Assembly: GCF_003097315.1 (NCBI RefSeq)
Contig: NZ_QDDL01000001.1
Coordinates: 992,001-1,056,000, forward strand
Length of the DNA stretch: 64,000 bases
Source: Pelagibaculum spongiae
GTDB lineage: Bacteria; Pseudomonadota; Gammaproteobacteria; Enterobacterales; Pelagibaculaceae
Direction of reading: 5' to 3'
Part shown: one piece after another, positions 1-13,949 of the stretch
Layout of the letters: each line of letters begins with the position of its first letter
Numbering within the stretch: position 1 is the first letter of the stretch
Position numbers and translations under genes: made by a program
The notes under the pieces: generated by a model
The model's input: the letters and a program-made list of their open reading frames with translations, nothing else
Databases searched by the model: none
Told to the model about the DNA's origin: nothing

Positions 1-560
1 GTAATTTTTCGCTTAAGAGATTTCAACCACCCATCGTCAAAAGTTTGCGATATCATTTGACACTTATGCAATAGTTCACCAGCATTTTTAATCGCCTGAA
101 GTCTTGGATCTAACTGCTGATTCTGGTGTAGCAATACAAACTTTTCGAAACCTTTTTCGTAGTGAAAATACTGAAAAAGAAGATATGCGATAGAAAAACA
201 ACAATGGTGATGCGGCAATTCAACCAGCACAGGTTTAGCCTGCTCGGCTTCATCTTCAACATCAAGCAACATCCGGTCTTCGATAGCAGAAAAATATTCC
301 TCAGCCTGCATCAAATTCATTGATTGAATCAAATGTGGTTCTAAATAAAAATCGACAACATTTTTCAGTGCTTGTGTGTTTTCATCATTATTTACTATAT
401 TTGAATCAATCGATTTTAGATCAACATGATTATAATCTTCTTCTTTAATGAAATGTAAAATCTTGTTTCTTTCAATAATAGGGTTTACTGATTGCGCTAA
501 CTTTTGGATTACTGTTAAATCAAATCTTGATTTAATTTCTTCTTCACTTGCATATTCCAT
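1..560 (-). CDS. Unidentified protein of the peptide-modification locus (partial, runs off left edge)
   Basis: An open frame starts at an ATG at 560 and stays open for 186 codons to the window edge, so its C-terminus is outside. A GAGG ribosome site lies 8 nt upstream, and the start is 21 nt after the HlyD stop, so it is very likely the next gene of the same minus-strand operon. The visible part is acidic at the N-terminus and otherwise looks soluble and helical. It has a His-His-His-Cys-Cys cluster at residues 117-121 followed by an aromatic-rich stretch. I do not recognise the family. By position it could be an accessory or immunity factor of the modified-peptide system, but that is inference from context only. 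Confidence 0.75.
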   Translation of the reverse strand, partial: MEYASEEEIKSRFDLTVIQKLAQSVNPIIERNKILHFIKEEDYNHVDLKSIDSNIVNNDENTQALKNVVDFYLEPHLIQSMNLMQAEEYFSAIEDRMLLDVEDEAEQAKPVLVELPHHHCCFSIAYLLFQYFHYEKGFEKFVLLHQNQQLDPRLQAIKNAGELLHKCQMISQTFDDGWLKSLKRKI

Positions 561-581
561 AACAGATACCTCATGAAACTT

Positions 582-2333
582 TTATTCGAAGTAACGAGTA
601 ATCAAGGGCAAGATCACTTCAATTGGAGGGACACTACCCACCCGAATTTTACTTTTAGTTGTGCTGCCTATCGCAAGAGGAATATCTGGTGGTTTCCCAT
701 CCCATTGATACCGTCCATTTTCATCCTTTTTCAGGTCAATAATTACTGCCACCCCCGATTGCTCCCCTGCAATTTTTTGCGCCAACTCAGATGTACCTAT
801 CAGAGCTTCTGCTTCAATTGAAGTAGTAATTAATTTACTTAATTGCCGTACGCTTGCTTTTAATTGAGCTCCCGCTAAAGTCTTTACATAATCTGGTTTG
901 ACTAACACACCATTACCCGGCGTAATTCTTTTCGCCTGATCTGAAGCCACCAGAGCAATATTAACTAACTCGCTGGTTTTCCATTGATCACCTATGATTT
1001 GTAACGATGAGAAAACCGGTGCCTTCTCAATATCTAACAAATCAAAATCTACTAGCTTAAGATATTTAATTCGATCACTTCCGTCATTTAAAGAAATAAC
1101 GAACCTATCGCCTTTTTGTTTAACAGAAATTAAATTAGGCTCAACATCTATTAAATCAGCTACTATGCGCTGCACCTGATATACAAATTGATAGGCTGAC
1201 TTCGTAAAATTGGCATCCAGTGTAATTTTTTTTTGCTGTGAGAAATATGAAAACTTCATATTGCCAGCAACCGCTCTTGGAGAAATTACTAGCATTTGCC
1301 TTACGTCTTGATCCACCATACCTAATAGTGCAACCGATTCACCTCTAACAACGCCTTGTCCGATTGTTTTATTTACAGCAAGTAGCTCACCAGAATAAGG
1401 AGCAATAATTCGTGAGCCACGCCATAAATCTCGTTCTTTCTGTAGCAGTGTTTGACGATACTTAAGCTCTTCAAGATTTAACTCATCTTTACCTGCTAAA
1501 AATGCTTCTCGAGTTTCTTCGATCTTATGATTTAATTCAATCAACTTGACATCCTGTTCAGCAATTAGCATTTGCAAGTCATAGATGTCTTTTTTCAACC
1601 TTTGCCGGTCAAGGCTAGAGCGAGGTGACCTTAACGACAATTCAGAGAATGATTGCAAAGTCACACTGTGCTGCTGTAAACCATCAAGATATTCCTGCTG
1701 ATTTACAAGATTACTCTTTTTTAACTTATCTAAATCAAATAGAAAGCTTTGGTATGCTGTCATTAATTTATTTAGAACTTTTCCCTGATCAGCAAGTGAT
1801 TGCTTTTGACGCTTAGAAAACACATCAGCAGCAGCAATCAAAGTATCTTTCAAATCGGCCAAGCTCTTTTTACTGCGTTCTATATTACTTATTTGCAACG
1901 CTATAGTATCAAGTGTCCGATTTTGGCTCGCTGTTGCATTGAGCTGACGATGAACCAATGCTTTTTTATTCTCTAAATAACTTCTTCTGGCCTGGAGAAA
2001 ATTTTCATCTGCACCCAAAGGCGATAACTCCAACAAGATATCACCTGCTTCAATTACTCGCTGCGGATCGCCCTGACGGGAAGTCACCACACCTTCACTA
2101 AAAGCATTTATTTCTCTTACACCACCTAGAGGCAACACCATTCCAGTCGCCTCAACTTCAATTGGTAATTCCGATAAAAACAACCATGCGGTAAGAGCAA
2201 ATAAAAAAAAGCTACTACTAAAAAGAAACGGCCAAAAAACTGATTCATTTCTTAATGGTATTAAAAGGCTTAACTGGCTTTCTTGATTTTGCTTTCTCTG
2301 TAATAGGAAAGACTTTCTGAATAATCGACTCAT
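582..2333 (-). CDS. HlyD-family periplasmic adaptor protein (peptide export)
   Basis: Membrane-fusion protein expected to link an inner-membrane ABC exporter to an outer-membrane channel. Residues 1-33 are cytoplasmic and basic, and 34-53 form one membrane segment. A barrel-sandwich half follows (about 60-115), then a long coiled coil (about 120-310) with many Leu/Lys/Gln residues, then the second half with the typical 'IIAPYSGELLAV' segment near 325. At 583 residues it is longer than classic HlyD; about 230 residues follow the second lipoyl half. That build, next to a radical SAM maturase and a precursor, resembles adaptors of NHLM-type bacteriocin exporters (inference). The ABC transporter itself is not in the window and may lie to the left. 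It is 40 nt after the radical SAM gene. Confidence 0.88.
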   Translation of the reverse strand: MSRLFRKSFLLQRKQNQESQLSLLIPLRNESVFWPFLFSSSFFLFALTAWLFLSELPIEVEATGMVLPLGGVREINAFSEGVVTSRQGDPQRVIEAGDILLELSPLGADENFLQARRSYLENKKALVHRQLNATASQNRTLDTIALQISNIERSKKSLADLKDTLIAAADVFSKRQKQSLADQGKVLNKLMTAYQSFLFDLDKLKKSNLVNQQEYLDGLQQHSVTLQSFSELSLRSPRSSLDRQRLKKDIYDLQMLIAEQDVKLIELNHKIEETREAFLAGKDELNLEELKYRQTLLQKERDLWRGSRIIAPYSGELLAVNKTIGQGVVRGESVALLGMVDQDVRQMLVISPRAVAGNMKFSYFSQQKKITLDANFTKSAYQFVYQVQRIVADLIDVEPNLISVKQKGDRFVISLNDGSDRIKYLKLVDFDLLDIEKAPVFSSLQIIGDQWKTSELVNIALVASDQAKRITPGNGVLVKPDYVKTLAGAQLKASVRQLSKLITTSIEAEALIGTSELAQKIAGEQSGVAVIIDLKKDENGRYQWDGKPPDIPLAIGSTTKSKIRVGSVPPIEVILPLITRYFE

Positions 2334-4140: not shown

Positions 4141-5304
4141 TTAACAGGATGGTAGTAATGGAATAATATTAATAAGACATGCTGAAACAGGGTCTCCTGG
4201 AACATTAATCCCACAAACACCAACACCTATGCCGCCACCTGCATCAACACCGCATGCAGTAGCTAAAGCTGCACAAGGAATTTGTACATCCGCACCACAC
4301 GCGTTCGCATTCGCAGCACAAGCGCCCAAAGCACCTGTTTGAGCACCACAAACACCGGCATTTGCTGCGCAAGCATTTCCAACACCCGCATTTACACCAC
4401 AAGCACCTGAATTTACAGCACAAGCATTAAGCACGCCAGCTGCCGTACCACAAGCACTAGCATTGGCTGTACAAGGGCTAACCGCTGAAGCCGCTGCACC
4501 ACAAACACTTGCATTTAGCGCACAAGGGCTGATTATTGCTGTTTTAGCACCGCAAACAATAAAATCTGCAGCGCAGGGATTTCCAGCAGAAAGGTTCGTG
4601 CCACAAGCAATTGCACCTCCGAGAGTTATATTATTGAAGCTCTGGTTAATGCCACAGGCACCAACACTTCCCACCGATGCAGAACCACTACCAACATTAG
4701 AGCCGCAAGTTCCAGCATCAGCAGCACAAGCTCCGTCTAAAAGCGTGTGTTGTGAGCCACACTGGCTGCTATTTGCAGCACATGCAGCACCTACTGGAAT
4801 ACCATTCAACTGGAGTTCAATTTCCGAGATATTTCTGTCTTCCATTTCATCATCGTCATCCATCACCGACTCTGAAACATCTAACAAAATCCCTCTTGCA
4901 TACGCCATAAAAATATCTGGCGCTATTTCTAAATCAATTATTTTTTCGCCTGTTTCAAAATCTTCAGGCAAGCCCCGCATCGCGATTACTCGTTGATTAA
5001 CCGATAGCACTGTATAATCAGCGACACCACTAATTCTTATAGATAGTTGGCCACCTAATTGATCAAGATGTTCCGCTCGATATACTGCGGGCAACATTTC
5101 CAACATAGTAACGTCAAATGGAGCTTCTGGAGTATTATTGATCTGGATTGTTTGCCACCTGCTATCCAATAAAAAATCAGGCTCAATATTTATTCCTGAT
5201 GCAAAATTATTAAAAGCGGCAATACTGGATACTCTTTCAGAATCGAGTCGACAGACTTCCTGCTGACTTAATGCTAGCATCGATAAAGAGTCGATTTGTT
5301 GCAT
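4141..5304 (-). CDS. Cys-rich repeat precursor of a radical SAM-modified peptide (putative)
   Basis: A 387-residue protein in two parts. Residues 1-172 are ordinary and acidic, ending in an Asp/Glu run at 149-155; this looks like a long leader or folded domain. Residues 173-387 are almost only Ala, Gly, Asn, Val, Ser and Cys, with 23 cysteines. Nine units fit C-x6-C-G (first Cys at 175, 193, 244, 261, 278, 295, 312, 329 and 344). The middle ones repeat every 17 residues, and most have Asn three after the first Cys. Extra 'ACG' units occur at 217 and 234, and the chain ends in Cys. It sits immediately before a radical SAM/SPASM enzyme and exporter adaptor, so I infer an unusually long RiPP-type substrate with regular thioether-like crosslinks. 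I do not recognise a named family. Confidence 0.8.
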   Translation of the reverse strand: MQQIDSLSMLALSQQEVCRLDSERVSSIAAFNNFASGINIEPDFLLDSRWQTIQINNTPEAPFDVTMLEMLPAVYRAEHLDQLGGQLSIRISGVADYTVLSVNQRVIAMRGLPEDFETGEKIIDLEIAPDIFMAYARGILLDVSESVMDDDDEMEDRNISEIELQLNGIPVGAACAANSSQCGSQHTLLDGACAADAGTCGSNVGSGSASVGSVGACGINQSFNNITLGGAIACGTNLSAGNPCAADFIVCGAKTAIISPCALNASVCGAAASAVSPCTANASACGTAAGVLNACAVNSGACGVNAGVGNACAANAGVCGAQTGALGACAANANACGADVQIPCAALATACGVDAGGGIGVGVCGINVPGDPVSACLINIIPLLPSC

Positions 5305-5322: not shown

Positions 5323-6177
5323 TTAAATAATGGCCTCAAGATCACGTACAGAAGCCATCCTCCTACGTCTCACAATTACTTGCGGACGATTTTCTAGACT
5401 TTCATTTACTTTCTGATATTGAAAGTCGACAGACAACTCTTTATCGACACTGATTTCAGTAAAACTAATTTTTAATTTTTGTATTTTTTTTCGATGTAAA
5501 ATCCACCCACTTGCCGTTGCTATACAAAGCAAACAAAAAGGCATTACGACATAAAATGTAACAGATGGTATTGGAACGCTATTTTTGGCTACTAAGTAAG
5601 TAGCGAGGTTAACTAAGCTATGAAGAGTCATCAACGAAAGCAATGAGAAATTATACTGCCGTAATACTGACAACAGCACACCAAAAGTAAAAAAGTACGC
5701 TGTAAGCCAAATATCTTTGTGTATGTGGATTAATGCAAATGCCACGCTGCCAAACAAAACCGTTCTGAAAAATGAATGTTTCCATACAATAGAAGGGATC
5801 AATCGAAAAATAACTTCTTCTGGAAAAGCGACCCAAACTAAATAATAAATGGTCATACCAAAAATCTGATTAAGAGGTATTTCTATTCCATACTTATTAG
5901 ATATAACGTGAAAAACTGAAGCTAAAAATACCAGCAAGACAACATTAAAGAGCAGCTCTTTTTTTCCAGCTGAGATATCTTTCCTCGTTAAATATCCTTT
6001 AGCCATCGCAAAAGACACAAGACAAACAGAAACCAAAAAAACCAACAAGGGCAAGTAGTTAACAAAAACTCCTAACTGACTTTTAGAGAAGACAGCATTC
6101 AAAAAAAACATGCTTGCCAATGTCAACACGGATAAAAAATACAGCTGTCCACTACCCATATTTCTTCTTTCCCCCAT
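5323..6177 (-). CDS. CPBP-family intramembrane metalloprotease
   Basis: Multi-pass membrane protein of about 284 residues with seven or eight hydrophobic segments. The CPBP/Abi (CAAX protease and bacteriocin-processing) motifs are visible: a Glu-Glu-x3-Arg motif ('FPEEVIFRL') and a later Phe-x3-His ('FALIHIHKD'). The C-terminal 60 residues are charged and cytoplasmic. It is the first gene of the peptide operon, 18 nt before the precursor, so it may cleave the leader or act in self-immunity, both known roles for CPBP proteins near bacteriocins. The start is uncertain: an internal ATG at 6159 is equally possible and is preceded by a purine-rich GGGGGAAAG stretch. Confidence 0.85.
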   Translation of the reverse strand: MGERRNMGSGQLYFLSVLTLASMFFLNAVFSKSQLGVFVNYLPLLVFLVSVCLVSFAMAKGYLTRKDISAGKKELLFNVVLLVFLASVFHVISNKYGIEIPLNQIFGMTIYYLVWVAFPEEVIFRLIPSIVWKHSFFRTVLFGSVAFALIHIHKDIWLTAYFFTFGVLLSVLRQYNFSLLSLMTLHSLVNLATYLVAKNSVPIPSVTFYVVMPFCLLCIATASGWILHRKKIQKLKISFTEISVDKELSVDFQYQKVNESLENRPQVIVRRRRMASVRDLEAII

Positions 6178-11074: not shown

Positions 11075-11137
11075 TTTGCTTCGATTTTTCAAGCATCAAT
11101 TATTTTGGTATTCATAATACCGGTCGGGAGTCCTCTA

Positions 11138-12400
11138 ATGAAAAAAACCCTGTCTCTGGCAGCCGTATTGCTTTTCAGCGGTATCGCACACGCAGCGCCT
11201 ACCGAAAAAGCCGTAGTAACTCACTATGCGGATCTGGCACAGGTGATTTATCAGGATTCGCTGATTACGGCACAAAATTTAAAGTATTCCATTGACCGTT
11301 TAATAAAAGATCCTACTCAGAACAATTTGCTAGCAGCACGCGCCGCATGGAAAGCCGCTCGCCACCCGTATCAGCAAACCGAAGCTTACCGCTTTGGAAA
11401 TCCGGTTGTTGATGCATGGGAAGGTAAAGTAAATGCCTGGCCATTAGATGAAGGCTTAATTGATTATGTTGACGCTGGCTATGGCGACGAATCAGACGAA
11501 AACCCTTATTACATTGCCAACGTCATCGCTAATCCTAAATTGAAGCTTTCTGGCAAAACTATTAATGCTTCAAAGATCACACCACAGTTGTTAGAAAAAG
11601 ACCTGCACGAAGTGGATGAAGTTGAAGCCAACGTTGCCACGGGTTATCACGCAATTGAATTTTTACTGTGGGGCCAAGATTTAAATGGTACTGGCGCTGG
11701 CGCTGGTAATCGCCCAGCCAGCGATTTTAATACCAAAAATTGCACCCATGGTAATTGCGACCGCCGCATTGAATTTTTAAATGCATCAGTTGATTTATTG
11801 CTGACTGACCTGCAATGGATTGTGAAAGCTTGGGAAAAAGGCGGCGAAGCACGTAAAGATTTAATGTCTCAGTCACCAAAAGCTGCTGTTGCAAGAATTT
11901 TTACTGGCATGGGTTCTTTGTCATACGGTGAATTAGCCGGCGAGCGAATGAAGCTTGGCCTAATGCTAAAAGATCCAGAAGAAGAGCATGATTGCTTTTC
12001 AGACAATACGCATTGGTCACATTATGATGATGCACTGAGCGTAAAAATCGTTTACACCGGTAGCTATACCCGTATCGACGGCAGCCGTTTCAGCGGCCCC
12101 TCCGCTTCTGATTTAGTGATTGCAAGCAATCCAAAAGCCGATGCAGAAATGCGTAAGGCGCTGCATAAAACCATGAGCAAAATGCAAGTTTTGGTTGATA
12201 GTGCAGAGCTGGAAGGTATCGCATATGACCAGCTGATTAGCGATAACAATACCAGCGGCAATATGAAAGTGACTGAAGCGATTAATGCATTGCTGTCACA
12301 AACTAAATTGATTGAAAAAGCTGTGTCAGCGTTGAAACTTGAACCGGTTGCTTTTGAAGGTTCTGATAGCTTGGATTCACCAGAAGTGATTGGCACCTAA
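11138..12400 (+). CDS. Imelysin-family iron-regulated protein (IrpA/ICMP-like)
   Basis: Exported protein of 420 residues. A clean signal peptide ('MKKTLSLAAVLLFSGIAHA', cleaved near residue 19) precedes an all-helical imelysin domain. The family motif GxHxxE is intact at G169, H171 and E174 ('GYHAIEFLLWGQD'). Members are periplasmic or outer-membrane-linked, often iron-regulated, and some are described as insulin-cleaving metalloproteins; iron handling is the likely role. I chose the ATG at 11138 (GGGAG 7 nt before) over an in-frame upstream start at 11105. It is the first of four genes downstream of Fur-like sites. Confidence 0.9.
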   Translation: MKKTLSLAAVLLFSGIAHAAPTEKAVVTHYADLAQVIYQDSLITAQNLKYSIDRLIKDPTQNNLLAARAAWKAARHPYQQTEAYRFGNPVVDAWEGKVNAWPLDEGLIDYVDAGYGDESDENPYYIANVIANPKLKLSGKTINASKITPQLLEKDLHEVDEVEANVATGYHAIEFLLWGQDLNGTGAGAGNRPASDFNTKNCTHGNCDRRIEFLNASVDLLLTDLQWIVKAWEKGGEARKDLMSQSPKAAVARIFTGMGSLSYGELAGERMKLGLMLKDPEEEHDCFSDNTHWSHYDDALSVKIVYTGSYTRIDGSRFSGPSASDLVIASNPKADAEMRKALHKTMSKMQVLVDSAELEGIAYDQLISDNNTSGNMKVTEAINALLSQTKLIEKAVSALKLEPVAFEGSDSLDSPEVIGT

Positions 12401-12414
12401 TATCCGCTTTAATT

Positions 12415-12450
12415 AAATCAGGAGGCTGAACTAGCAACCTCCTGGTTTAA
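12415..12450 (+). terminator. Hairpin between imelysin and di-haem gene
   Basis: An 11-bp stem with one mismatch (AAATCAGGAGG / CCTCCTGGTTT), starting 15 nt after the imelysin stop. The T-run is short, so it may attenuate rather than stop transcription into the following gene. Confidence 0.45.
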
Positions 12451-12488
12451 AATACTTTTTAAAACTTATGTAGTAGAAGGATTGGTAC

Positions 12489-13949
12489 ATGCATTCCCGC
12501 CAGAATAAAAAAAATCTCACCGGCACTCTGCCGGTTTTGTTGTTTTTGGTCAGTAGCTTTTCTGCTATTGCCCAAACCAATCAACTTGAGCCAGGAGAGG
12601 CTTTTCCTGGCGGTGCTACAACGCATCAGAAAAAGCTTAATAAAAATTCTTTTTCCCATCCTTCGGCCAATATGTCATTTGAAAACCAATTAAATTTTCG
12701 GATTGGCAATGGTTTTTTTAAACGGTTATGGGTTTCTTCGCCAGCATCAACAAAAGCAGCCGATGGTTTAGGGCCGGTATATAACGCTCGGTCTTGCCAG
12801 CGTTGTCACTTAAAAGATGGTCGTGGCCACCCACCAGAAAATGCCCAAGATAATTCAGTTTCAATGTTTTTGCGTTTGAGTATTCCTGCGCAAAACCAGC
12901 AGCAACAACAATTATTAGATAGCGGCAGAGTCCCTGTGATTGCCGAGCCAACCTATGGCGGCCAATTGCAAGACTTTGCGGTACAGGGTCACAATGCTGA
13001 AGGTCGTATGGTGATTGAATATAGAGAAATACCGCTGCAATTAGCCGATGGCGAGGCAATCAGCTTGCGCATGCCTACTTACTCAGTTGCCGATTTAGGC
13101 TATGGCGCGATGCATCCCGATACCATGCTATCGCCTCGTATTGCGCCACAAATGATTGGCTTAGGATTACTAGAAGCGATCAAAGAAGAAGATTTACTGG
13201 CCAATGCCGATCCACAGGATAACAACAGCGATGGTATTTCCGGTAAGCCGAATAGGATTTGGAGTCCGCTGCACCAGCAAGTCATGCTCGGGCGCTACGG
13301 CTGGAAAGCCGGTAATGCCGGAGTAGACGAGCAATCGCAAGGCGCATTTTCTGGTGATATGGGTTTATCAACACCACTGCATCCAAATGGTTTTGGTGAA
13401 TGTACCACCCATCAGAAAACCTGTACTGACGCCCTAAACGGCAATAGCCCGCAATATGAAAATCTGGAAGTCCACCAGCAAATTTCTGACTTGGTTTTAT
13501 TTTATTCACGAAACTTAGCTGTGCCAGCCAGAAGAAACCCAACCAATGCCAACGTATTAGCAGGTAAAAAGCTATTTAATCAAACCGGCTGTGCCGCATG
13601 CCACACTCCAAGCTATACCACCGGCCAGCGTGACGATTTACCCGAACAATCTAATCAGAAGATCTGGCCTTATACCGATTTAATGTTGCACGATATGGGC
13701 CCGGGTTTGGCAGATAATCGCCCGGAAGGTTTAGCCAGCGGGCAAGAATGGAAAACTCCTCCATTGTGGGGTATCGGCTTAACGCCAATCGTCAATAATC
13801 ATAGCTATTACTTGCATGACGGCCGTGCCCGTAGCTTGCTGGAAGCAGTTTTGTGGCATGGCGGTGAAGCGCAACCCGCGCGAGATAAGGTAGTTGCCAT
13901 GAGCAAAGTCGAGCGCCAGCAACTGATCCAATTTATTGAGTCATTATAA
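12489..13949 (+). CDS. Di-haem oxidoreductase, DUF1111 (thiol oxidoreductase-like)
   Basis: Exported 486-residue c-type cytochrome related to di-haem peroxidases. A signal peptide ends near residue 29. Two CxxCH haem sites are present: C103/C106/H107 ('CQRCHLKDGRGHPP') and C368/C371/H372 ('GCAACHTPSY'). The C-terminal 'TPPLWGIGL' and 'YYLHDGRARSLLEAVLWHGGEA' segments are typical of the DUF1111 family. It lies between two imelysin genes, a known conserved neighbourhood, which suggests a redox step (for example iron oxidation or reduction) in the same uptake process; that part is inference. Confidence 0.9.
   Translation: MHSRQNKKNLTGTLPVLLFLVSSFSAIAQTNQLEPGEAFPGGATTHQKKLNKNSFSHPSANMSFENQLNFRIGNGFFKRLWVSSPASTKAADGLGPVYNARSCQRCHLKDGRGHPPENAQDNSVSMFLRLSIPAQNQQQQQLLDSGRVPVIAEPTYGGQLQDFAVQGHNAEGRMVIEYREIPLQLADGEAISLRMPTYSVADLGYGAMHPDTMLSPRIAPQMIGLGLLEAIKEEDLLANADPQDNNSDGISGKPNRIWSPLHQQVMLGRYGWKAGNAGVDEQSQGAFSGDMGLSTPLHPNGFGECTTHQKTCTDALNGNSPQYENLEVHQQISDLVLFYSRNLAVPARRNPTNANVLAGKKLFNQTGCAACHTPSYTTGQRDDLPEQSNQKIWPYTDLMLHDMGPGLADNRPEGLASGQEWKTPPLWGIGLTPIVNNHSYYLHDGRARSLLEAVLWHGGEAQPARDKVVAMSKVERQQLIQFIESL

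Follow-up and report, generated by a model that had tools for sequence, protein, structure and literature searches.

Radical S-adenosylmethionine (SAM) enzymes that act on ribosomally synthesized and posttranslationally modified peptides (RiPPs) are known mainly from short peptides, and the substrates of ranthipeptide maturases are likewise short. The nearest precursor that has been annotated for the kind of system described here is CefA, a protein of 679 residues; NCBI annotates it next to a TIGR04463 maturase, both being encoded on a Methylomagnum plasmid. The ranthipeptide maturase PapB is reported to form thioethers between Cys and Asp or Glu in Cys-Xn-Asp motifs (n, 0 to 6) (PMC9413430). 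In another report, a precursor with TVGG repeats is converted by a radical SAM enzyme to cyclopropylglycine (PMC9062424), which shows that repeat precursors can receive quite different modifications. Here, we analyzed 64,000 nucleotides of Pelagibaculum spongiae (contig NZ_QDDL01000001.1, positions 992,001 to 1,056,000 of the forward strand), referred to as the window throughout. On its minus strand, a gene of 387 codons for a long Cys-repeat protein, the putative precursor, is followed by a gene for a radical SAM/SPASM enzyme. We propose, with a probability of about 0.58, that the two belong to a RiPP-like system in which the enzyme would cross-link the repeat Cys of a protein scaffold, after which a leader would be cut off and the product exported.

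Results

An earlier note on this DNA, made from the sequence alone, had reported 23 Cys in the last 215 residues of the precursor, a Cys as its last residue, and an extended N-terminal part, and all three were confirmed. Its nine C-x6-C-G units were located as well, with their first Cys at residues 175, 193, 244, 261, 278, 295, 312, 329, and 344. The 17-residue period that it described for the middle units is reflected in 13 Cys pairs at a lag of 17, whereas 5,000 random placements gave 2.2 on average and never more than 8. Pairs at a lag of 7 were also enriched (9; random mean, 2.3; maximum, 8), whereas the 6 pairs at a lag of 10 (random mean, 2.3; maximum, 8) are inside the random range when this lag is taken alone. 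The period in the middle of the array is 7+10, and it is imperfect, since two gaps of 17 mark units that retain a single Cys. Ala, Gly, Cys, Asn, Ser, and Val are abundant in the protein. At E ≤ 1, the precursor matched nothing in NCBIfam, Pfam, or the PDB sequences, and a search of the 4.99-Mb host genome found no second copy. We ruled out a chance or low-complexity artifact, because the numbers of pairs at lags 7 and 17 exceed those of all 5,000 random placements and because the repeat, its conserved ends, and its neighbors recur in distant genera.

We are moderately sure that the N-terminal part is an SCP2-like domain. Residues 1 to 150 of an AlphaFold2 model had block values of the predicted local distance difference test (pLDDT) of 80 to 98, mostly above 88. 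Structural comparison with VIA matched this part to SCP2 proteins and to the SCP2-like domains of alkylsulfatases, although weakly (Z, 3.3 to 4.1); examples are 4av7_B and 8af2_B, with root mean square deviations (rmsd) of 2.9 over 73 residues and 3.7 over 79 residues, respectively. The top Foldseek row was UbiJ-SCP2, at a poor E value of 0.88.

The neighboring enzyme had its best NCBIfam match in TIGR04463 (rSAM_vs_C_rich), with 468.6 bits and an E value of 1.8e-140 over nearly the full length of the model. Clo7bot (240.5 bits), CefB (203.7 bits), and PapB (107.5 bits) were among the lower matches. In Pfam, PF04055 was matched at 3.3e-12 and PF13186 at 15.3 bits, under its threshold of 21.5. 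The radical SAM/SPASM assignment of the earlier note can be retained; the SPASM part is below the Pfam cut-off but fits SPASM-type NCBIfam models. The CxxxCxxC motif and seven cluster-type Cys (together C147, C151, C154, C379, C398, C438, C441, C447, C451, and C468) were invariant in three enzymes, and the window enzyme fits the pattern of cluster-binding Cys known from radical SAM/SPASM proteins. Its nearest solved chain is the radical SAM protein 5wgg (E, 9e-9), which we take to be the thioether-forming CteB.

A TIGR04463 search of the phylum sample (E ≤ 1e-90) returned 3 of 398 genomes, namely, the window's own genome, G103, and G232, and a Cys-repeat open reading frame (ORF) adjoined the enzyme in each of them. 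Precursor relatives in the 40 genomes of the relatives draw were confined to the own genome (1/40). A contig scan with the aligned enzymes gave 121 loci, of which the best 80 (L009 to L088) were all screened for Cys-repeat ORFs, with L008 to L035 being tallied; the screen was tuned to the window type, missed L034, which was found by hand, and may miss others in L035 to L088. A tree of 42 enzymes placed the window in a clade of 20 (the window and L009 to L027; support, 100/99). Within this clade, a Cys-repeat ORF was present in 18 of the 19 relatives, or 19 of 20 members with the window, and an SCP2-like domain in 19 of 20. The sole miss, L016, is a contig that begins inside the radical SAM gene; in L011 and L020, only the end of the Cys-repeat gene is visible, at the contig ends. 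Cys-repeat ORFs, mainly with 5/10 spacing, were also present outside the clade (L008, L028, L029, L030, L032, and L034). L035 has a 99-codon frame with 9 Cys near the enzyme, and the few ORFs passing the screen in L036 to L088 (L073, L086, and L088) look like unrelated frames.

The pairing was also approached with the SCP2-like domain, rather than the enzyme, as the query. In the own class, 1 of 369 genomes was retrieved in this way; for the order and the family of G232, the yields were 3 of 297 and 3 of 295 genomes, respectively. Both a Cys-repeat ORF and a radical SAM gene were present at all six distinct loci obtained; in G1101, a stop lies inside the matched SCP2-like stretch. It should be noted that this sample is not independent, because several of the loci are probably from the same species as those retrieved with the enzyme, from which the model was built. 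Conserved pairing with one radical SAM family, which the earlier note had suggested as a check, was thus seen from the enzyme side (18/19) and from the domain side (6/6), and no homologue lacking a radical SAM neighbor was found in either sample. Across the samples searched, the system occurred rarely and with a patchy distribution. No relative was found in viral contigs when the window enzyme was the query; the enzyme alignment retrieved two distant radical SAM loci there.

Of these two loci on IMG/VR viral contigs (L089:4516-9185 and L090:4609-9257, the latter screened only), L089 has an ORF of ~1,150 residues that ends in a Cys-every-fourth repeat (CQTTCQSSC...). Directly after it comes a gene for a radical SAM enzyme that matches PapB best in NCBIfam (120.5 of 340 bits). 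The long ORF possibly encodes a phage structural protein with its own maturase.

The repeat pattern was counted in 13 chosen proteins of the clade. The half-unit reads C-[GA]-A-[DN], or more loosely C-[GA]-x-[DN], with spacings of 7 and 9 to 10, and D or N follows at +3 for 84% of the first Cys (n = 186) and 76% of the second Cys (n = 185). In five aligned Bradyrhizobium homologues (363 gap-free columns), the columns were invariant for Cys in 44 of 44, for Asp in 32 of 34, and for Asn in 14 of 16 cases; the corresponding values for Ala, Gly, and Val were 68/107, 43/59, and 17/28, respectively. In 13 cases in the family, Cys are 17 apart with none between; in 7 of these, the residue at +10 precedes G/A. 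Together with the odd number of Cys in the window precursor, these places make an obligatory Cys-Cys pairing unlikely, and the repeat scaffold does not depend on every Cys.

A short tag is shared at the C terminus of the Cys-repeat proteins and, in most of them, also at the N terminus. Of 28 Cys-repeat ORFs, all but those of L031 and L034 (26/28) terminate in [IVLF][IL]PxxP[SGF][CIT]. For the window and for 20 of 24 ORFs (not for L010_6820, L027, L031, and L032), a start can be chosen that places [IV]D within residues 3 to 7, compared with 71 of 1,834 long ORFs read from their first Met in the same loci; this enrichment is overstated, because the start codons were picked by visual inspection and the set includes many close relatives. 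Most separate SCP2-like proteins likewise start with M-x-x-[IVL]-D. The domain between the two tags varies and can be SCP2-like, LysM, PPC, or ricin-B/crystallin. LysM was matched in the Bradyrhizobium protein of L007 (Pfam, 5.7e-8) and recognized by eye in other Bradyrhizobium and several Methylobacterium Cys-repeat proteins, PPC domains occur in L009 (8.7e-16), and ricin-B and crystallin domains occur in L032. The claim that the product is not a short bacteriocin is supported by these additional domains on some homologues and by homologue lengths of 176 to 940 residues.

Further frames were noted at two loci. At L010:5561-9290 (Rhodomicrobium), three Cys-repeat ORFs in tandem precede one SCP2-like gene and one radical SAM gene; their open frames hold 65, 45, and 24 Cys, and part of the second frame is in a different phase from the first. 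At L007:10612-14157, an ORF of 1,181 residues adjoins the LysM Cys-repeat gene; by eye, its start is LysM-like.

In the window, L009, and L025, the SCP2-like domain and the repeat form one protein; in the other 16 testable members of the clade, the domain has its own gene near the radical SAM gene (on the opposite strand in L027). Outside the clade, a second group of SCP2-like domains is part of the Cys-repeat proteins of L008 and L028 to L030. The Pfam SCP2 model matched none of 15 group 1 domains and, weakly, 3 of 4 group 2 homologues (best E, 0.0037), the bit scores of the latter, where printed, being 15.4 and 18.6, under the gathering score of 21.3. The group 1 profile aligned to a group 2 domain with an hhalign probability of 93 (E, 3.5e-7). 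Compared with solved-structure sequences, the group 2 leader profile gave no match at E ≤ 1, and the window domain gave no match to plasmids at E ≤ 1e-3. Only the three fused forms run into the motif E-D-R-x-[IVL]-S-x-x-E-L-x-L-x-G-[MI]-P-x-G-[GA]. The window junction aligns with ...GMPSGG and ...GMPAGG of L009 and L025, and the fused domains appear to end in a double-glycine-like site.

The minus-strand gene order is CPBP protease, precursor, radical SAM enzyme, HlyD-type adaptor, 285-amino-acid (aa) protein, ABC transporter without peptidase, C39-type ABC transporter, and 254-aa protein (Table 1). From the precursor to the C39-type transporter, this order is identical in the window, L009, and L025. 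The C39-type transporter is nearest to TIGR03796 (NHLM type) with 275.5 of 853.3 bits, and the exporter reached 118.4 of 709.4 bits with TIGR03797, both below the cut-off; the NHLP leader models gave no match for the precursor. HlyD and a strong C39 ABC match accompany all three fused precursors, whereas HlyD was found in none of the 16 split systems in the stretches examined, in which L015 and L027 have weak ABC matches. Because the junction, HlyD, and the strong C39 ABC match are restricted to the fused forms, cleavage and export of the repeat part are the likely fate of these proteins. The CPBP protease was rejected as a general part of the system, as a homologue (E ≤ 1e-4) was found in 0 of 28 loci (L008 to L035) in the stretches examined.

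Table 1. Features of the precursor operon in the window
Feature	Position in window	Strand	Basis or remark
Precursor, 387 aa: SCP2-like domain, leader-type junction, and Cys-repeat region	4141..5304	minus	
SCP2-like domain, ~residues 1-158	4831..5304	minus	Encoded on its own in 16 relatives
Leader-type junction ISEIELQLNGIPVGA, probable C39 cleavage region	4783..4830	minus	Aligned with L009 and L025; cleavage predicted
Cys-repeat region, residues 175-387; 23 Cys, nine C-x6-C-G	4144..4782	minus	Counts and alignment of relatives
C-terminal tag, conserved, ...DPVSACLINIIPLLPSC	4144..4212	minus	Pattern in 26/28 Cys-repeat ORFs
Radical SAM/SPASM enzyme, 565 aa	2374..4071	minus	TIGR04463, PF04055
HlyD-type export adaptor	582..2333	minus	TIGR03794, 87 bits (cut-off, 156.2); HlyD_3, 5.3e-5
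285-aa partner, first part (remainder outside the window, L002:17703-18560)	1..560	minus	Predicted LpxM/PatA-like acyltransferase fold
CPBP (Rce1-like) membrane protease, upstream neighbor	5323..6177	minus	PF02517, 4e-9

The 285-aa protein is present in 20 of 20 clade loci, i.e., in the window operon and 19 others. It had no NCBIfam match, its profile matched no PDB sequence at E ≤ 1, and Pfam returned nothing convincing for 12 members of the family, with one stray match for each of three families. Its AlphaFold2 model (mean pLDDT, 84.3; predicted template modeling score, 0.85) is predicted to have the LpxM/PatA fold of LPLAT acyltransferases: the first eight VIA rows were PatA (Z, 11.6 to 12.3) and LpxM (Z, 11.3 to 11.5) over 202 to 220 residues, after which Z dropped to 7.9, and the best Foldseek E value was 2.4e-6. 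Acyltransferases of this fold carry an HX4D or HX4E catalytic pair. The 285-aa family has HX4S instead, with H117, H118, and S123 invariant in 12 of 12 members (position assigned by sequence). A lipid step via this protein is plausible from the model; the protein could also have lost its activity.

Elsewhere in the window, at 11105-13949 on the plus strand, an imelysin-like protein is followed by a di-heme-oxidase-like protein, as judged by eye. We take this pair to resemble iron-uptake pairs.

Discussion

In the reading that we favor, the TIGR04463-type enzyme would modify the precursor in the cytosol, with the N-terminal M-x-x-[IV]-D and C-terminal IPxxPSC tags probably serving as docking sites, and would convert the repeat Cys individually into intramolecular thioethers. 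The C39 peptidase-ABC protein, its partner ABC protein, and HlyD would then remove the SCP2-like part and export a Cys-repeat polypeptide of ~211 residues. This polypeptide might serve as a rigid cell-surface or secreted element with a structural or adhesive role, and acyl groups may be transferred by the acyltransferase-fold partner to this product or to a target in the membrane. A product cross-linked before export would be unusually large for such chemistry. Cross-linked repeats would also represent a natural route to a protein material that is very stiff and stapled through its thiols. Substrate recognition by the enzyme has a ready-made test in the fused and split arrangements of the SCP2-like domain, and the acyltransferase-fold partner points to a lipid step that is unexpected in such systems.

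Several observations weigh against cross-linking followed by export. D or N at +3 persists where Cys is missing, namely, in 5 of 13 single-Cys units at +10 and in 3 of 13 at +7. In L019, a segment without Cys has IGAD, IGVN, and IGVD at spacings of 7 and 10. D/N is somewhat weakened as a cross-link partner by being kept at such places and may in part be structural. The 468.6 bits of the window enzyme are less than the TIGR04463 cut-off of 525, as are the scores of L009 (415.7), L025 (430.7), L014 (443.4), L034 (471.9), and L029 (523.7); L028 (553.2) and L032 (589) are above it, and both enzymes adjoin Cys-repeat ORFs. Two more distant loci of the wider radical SAM type have other partners, namely, a protein with about 1 Cys per 16 residues in L031 and a small Cys peptide in L033. 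Finally, the LysM split systems have no HlyD homologue in the stretches examined and no obvious signal peptide by eye, which leaves their export unexplained.

A more far-reaching version, which we put forward tentatively and consider rather doubtful, is that the Cys repeat is a portable, end-tagged module attached to wall-, sugar-, or lipid-binding domains. Through tens of thioethers per chain, the radical SAM enzyme would staple this module into a rigid, cross-linked solenoid or rod, lipid would be added or handled by the acyltransferase-fold protein and the SCP2-like domain, in cis or in trans, and the product would thereby be anchored at the cell surface. If true, radical SAM chemistry would serve structural proteins instead of small peptides.

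The 12 to 65 Cys per ORF across the family would also suit a metal buffer or metallophore, with a metal-binding group built by the enzyme or with thiols that remain unmodified, and bufferins, which are other modified RiPPs, are reported to chelate copper (PMC12452194). We nevertheless regard a metal-binding product as unlikely. No metal-transport or metal-sensing family was matched among the operon proteins searched, and the LysM, PPC, and lectin domains of some homologues point to cell wall or sugar binding. In addition, the 13 single-Cys units have Thr (6 units) or Ser (2 units) at +10, and in L019 the Cys positions can be taken by Ile in register.

The Ile residues of L019 would fit an inward-facing position, as expected if the repeat were a disulfide-bonded solenoid resembling adhesins or ice-binding proteins, with the radical SAM enzyme modifying something else in it. 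The AlphaFold2 model has strands through residues 214 to 353 (block pLDDT, mostly 52 to 74, and 52 to 74 over residues 211 to 350), and its best structural rows include a Lolium ice-binding protein (Z, 9.8; rmsd, 8.3; 114 residues aligned) and left-handed beta-helix enzymes. However, block pLDDT falls below 50 at the C-terminal end, confidence in a modeled solenoid is low, and repeats readily yield such models. The odd number of Cys and the single-Cys units oppose strict disulfide pairing, and all six loci retrieved without radical SAM as the query carried a radical SAM gene. A disulfide solenoid is therefore improbable in our view.

That the product is a bacteriocin or signaling RiPP, processed further to short peptides, is suggested by the exporter being nearest to the NHLM type used for bacteriocins and by classical GG leaders with weak bacteriocin-family matches in L028 and L030, but the length of the homologues, the LysM/PPC/ricin-B domains on some of them, the lack of a recognized immunity gene in the window operon, and the lack of a conserved second protease (CPBP, 0/28 loci) make it very unlikely.

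With regard to known systems, the genes predict a RiPP-type architecture, in which a putative removable leader, a putative maturase, and a putative exporter are encoded together. The exporter resembles NHLP/NHLM systems (TIGR03794/03796/03797) in combining HlyD, a C39 ABC protein, and a second ABC protein in one operon; it differs in that all scores are under the curated cut-offs and that the leader in the window is SCP2-like. As in the ranthipeptide maturases PapB and SCIFF, a radical SAM/SPASM enzyme would act on repeated Cys with acidic residues nearby, whereas the window enzyme is far under their cut-offs (107.5 of 340 and 76.8 of 425 bits). TIGR04463, named for C-rich targets, is the best family for the window enzyme, and such a target adjoins it; the enzyme differs in its sub-cut-off score and in belonging to a separate clade of 20 with an SCP2-like domain and an acyltransferase-fold partner. 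CefA (NF038108, Cys-every-fifth) shares a long Cys-Gly repeat, the end DIIPIIPGI, a large N-terminal part, and a TIGR04463 neighbor. The Cys spacing of L032, which passes the CefA model with 66.7 bits, is mainly 5 and 10, in contrast to 7 and 10 in the window, and the window precursor had no match to this model (cut-off, 30) at E ≤ 1. The surroundings of CefA differ too: at L091:1-12838 on the Methylomagnum plasmid, CefA and the TIGR04463 maturase are accompanied by a radical SAM C-methyltransferase and a 2OG-Fe(II) (2-oxoglutarate- and iron-dependent) oxygenase, and the stretch adjoins a filamentous haemagglutinin-family gene.

The view of the earlier note that no named RiPP class could be matched has to be amended, with the enzyme nearest to TIGR04463 and the precursor nearest to CefA, although neither cut-off is passed. 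In the literature, nothing on this system was present among the matches listed, from a coverage outside which most subscription journals fall. Since NCBI names the TIGR04463 maturase and annotates CefA beside one, the general kind of system is already known to annotators. The 7/10 spacing, the SCP2-like domain in cis or in trans, and the acyltransferase-fold partner distinguish the system of the window as a variant named by no model used.
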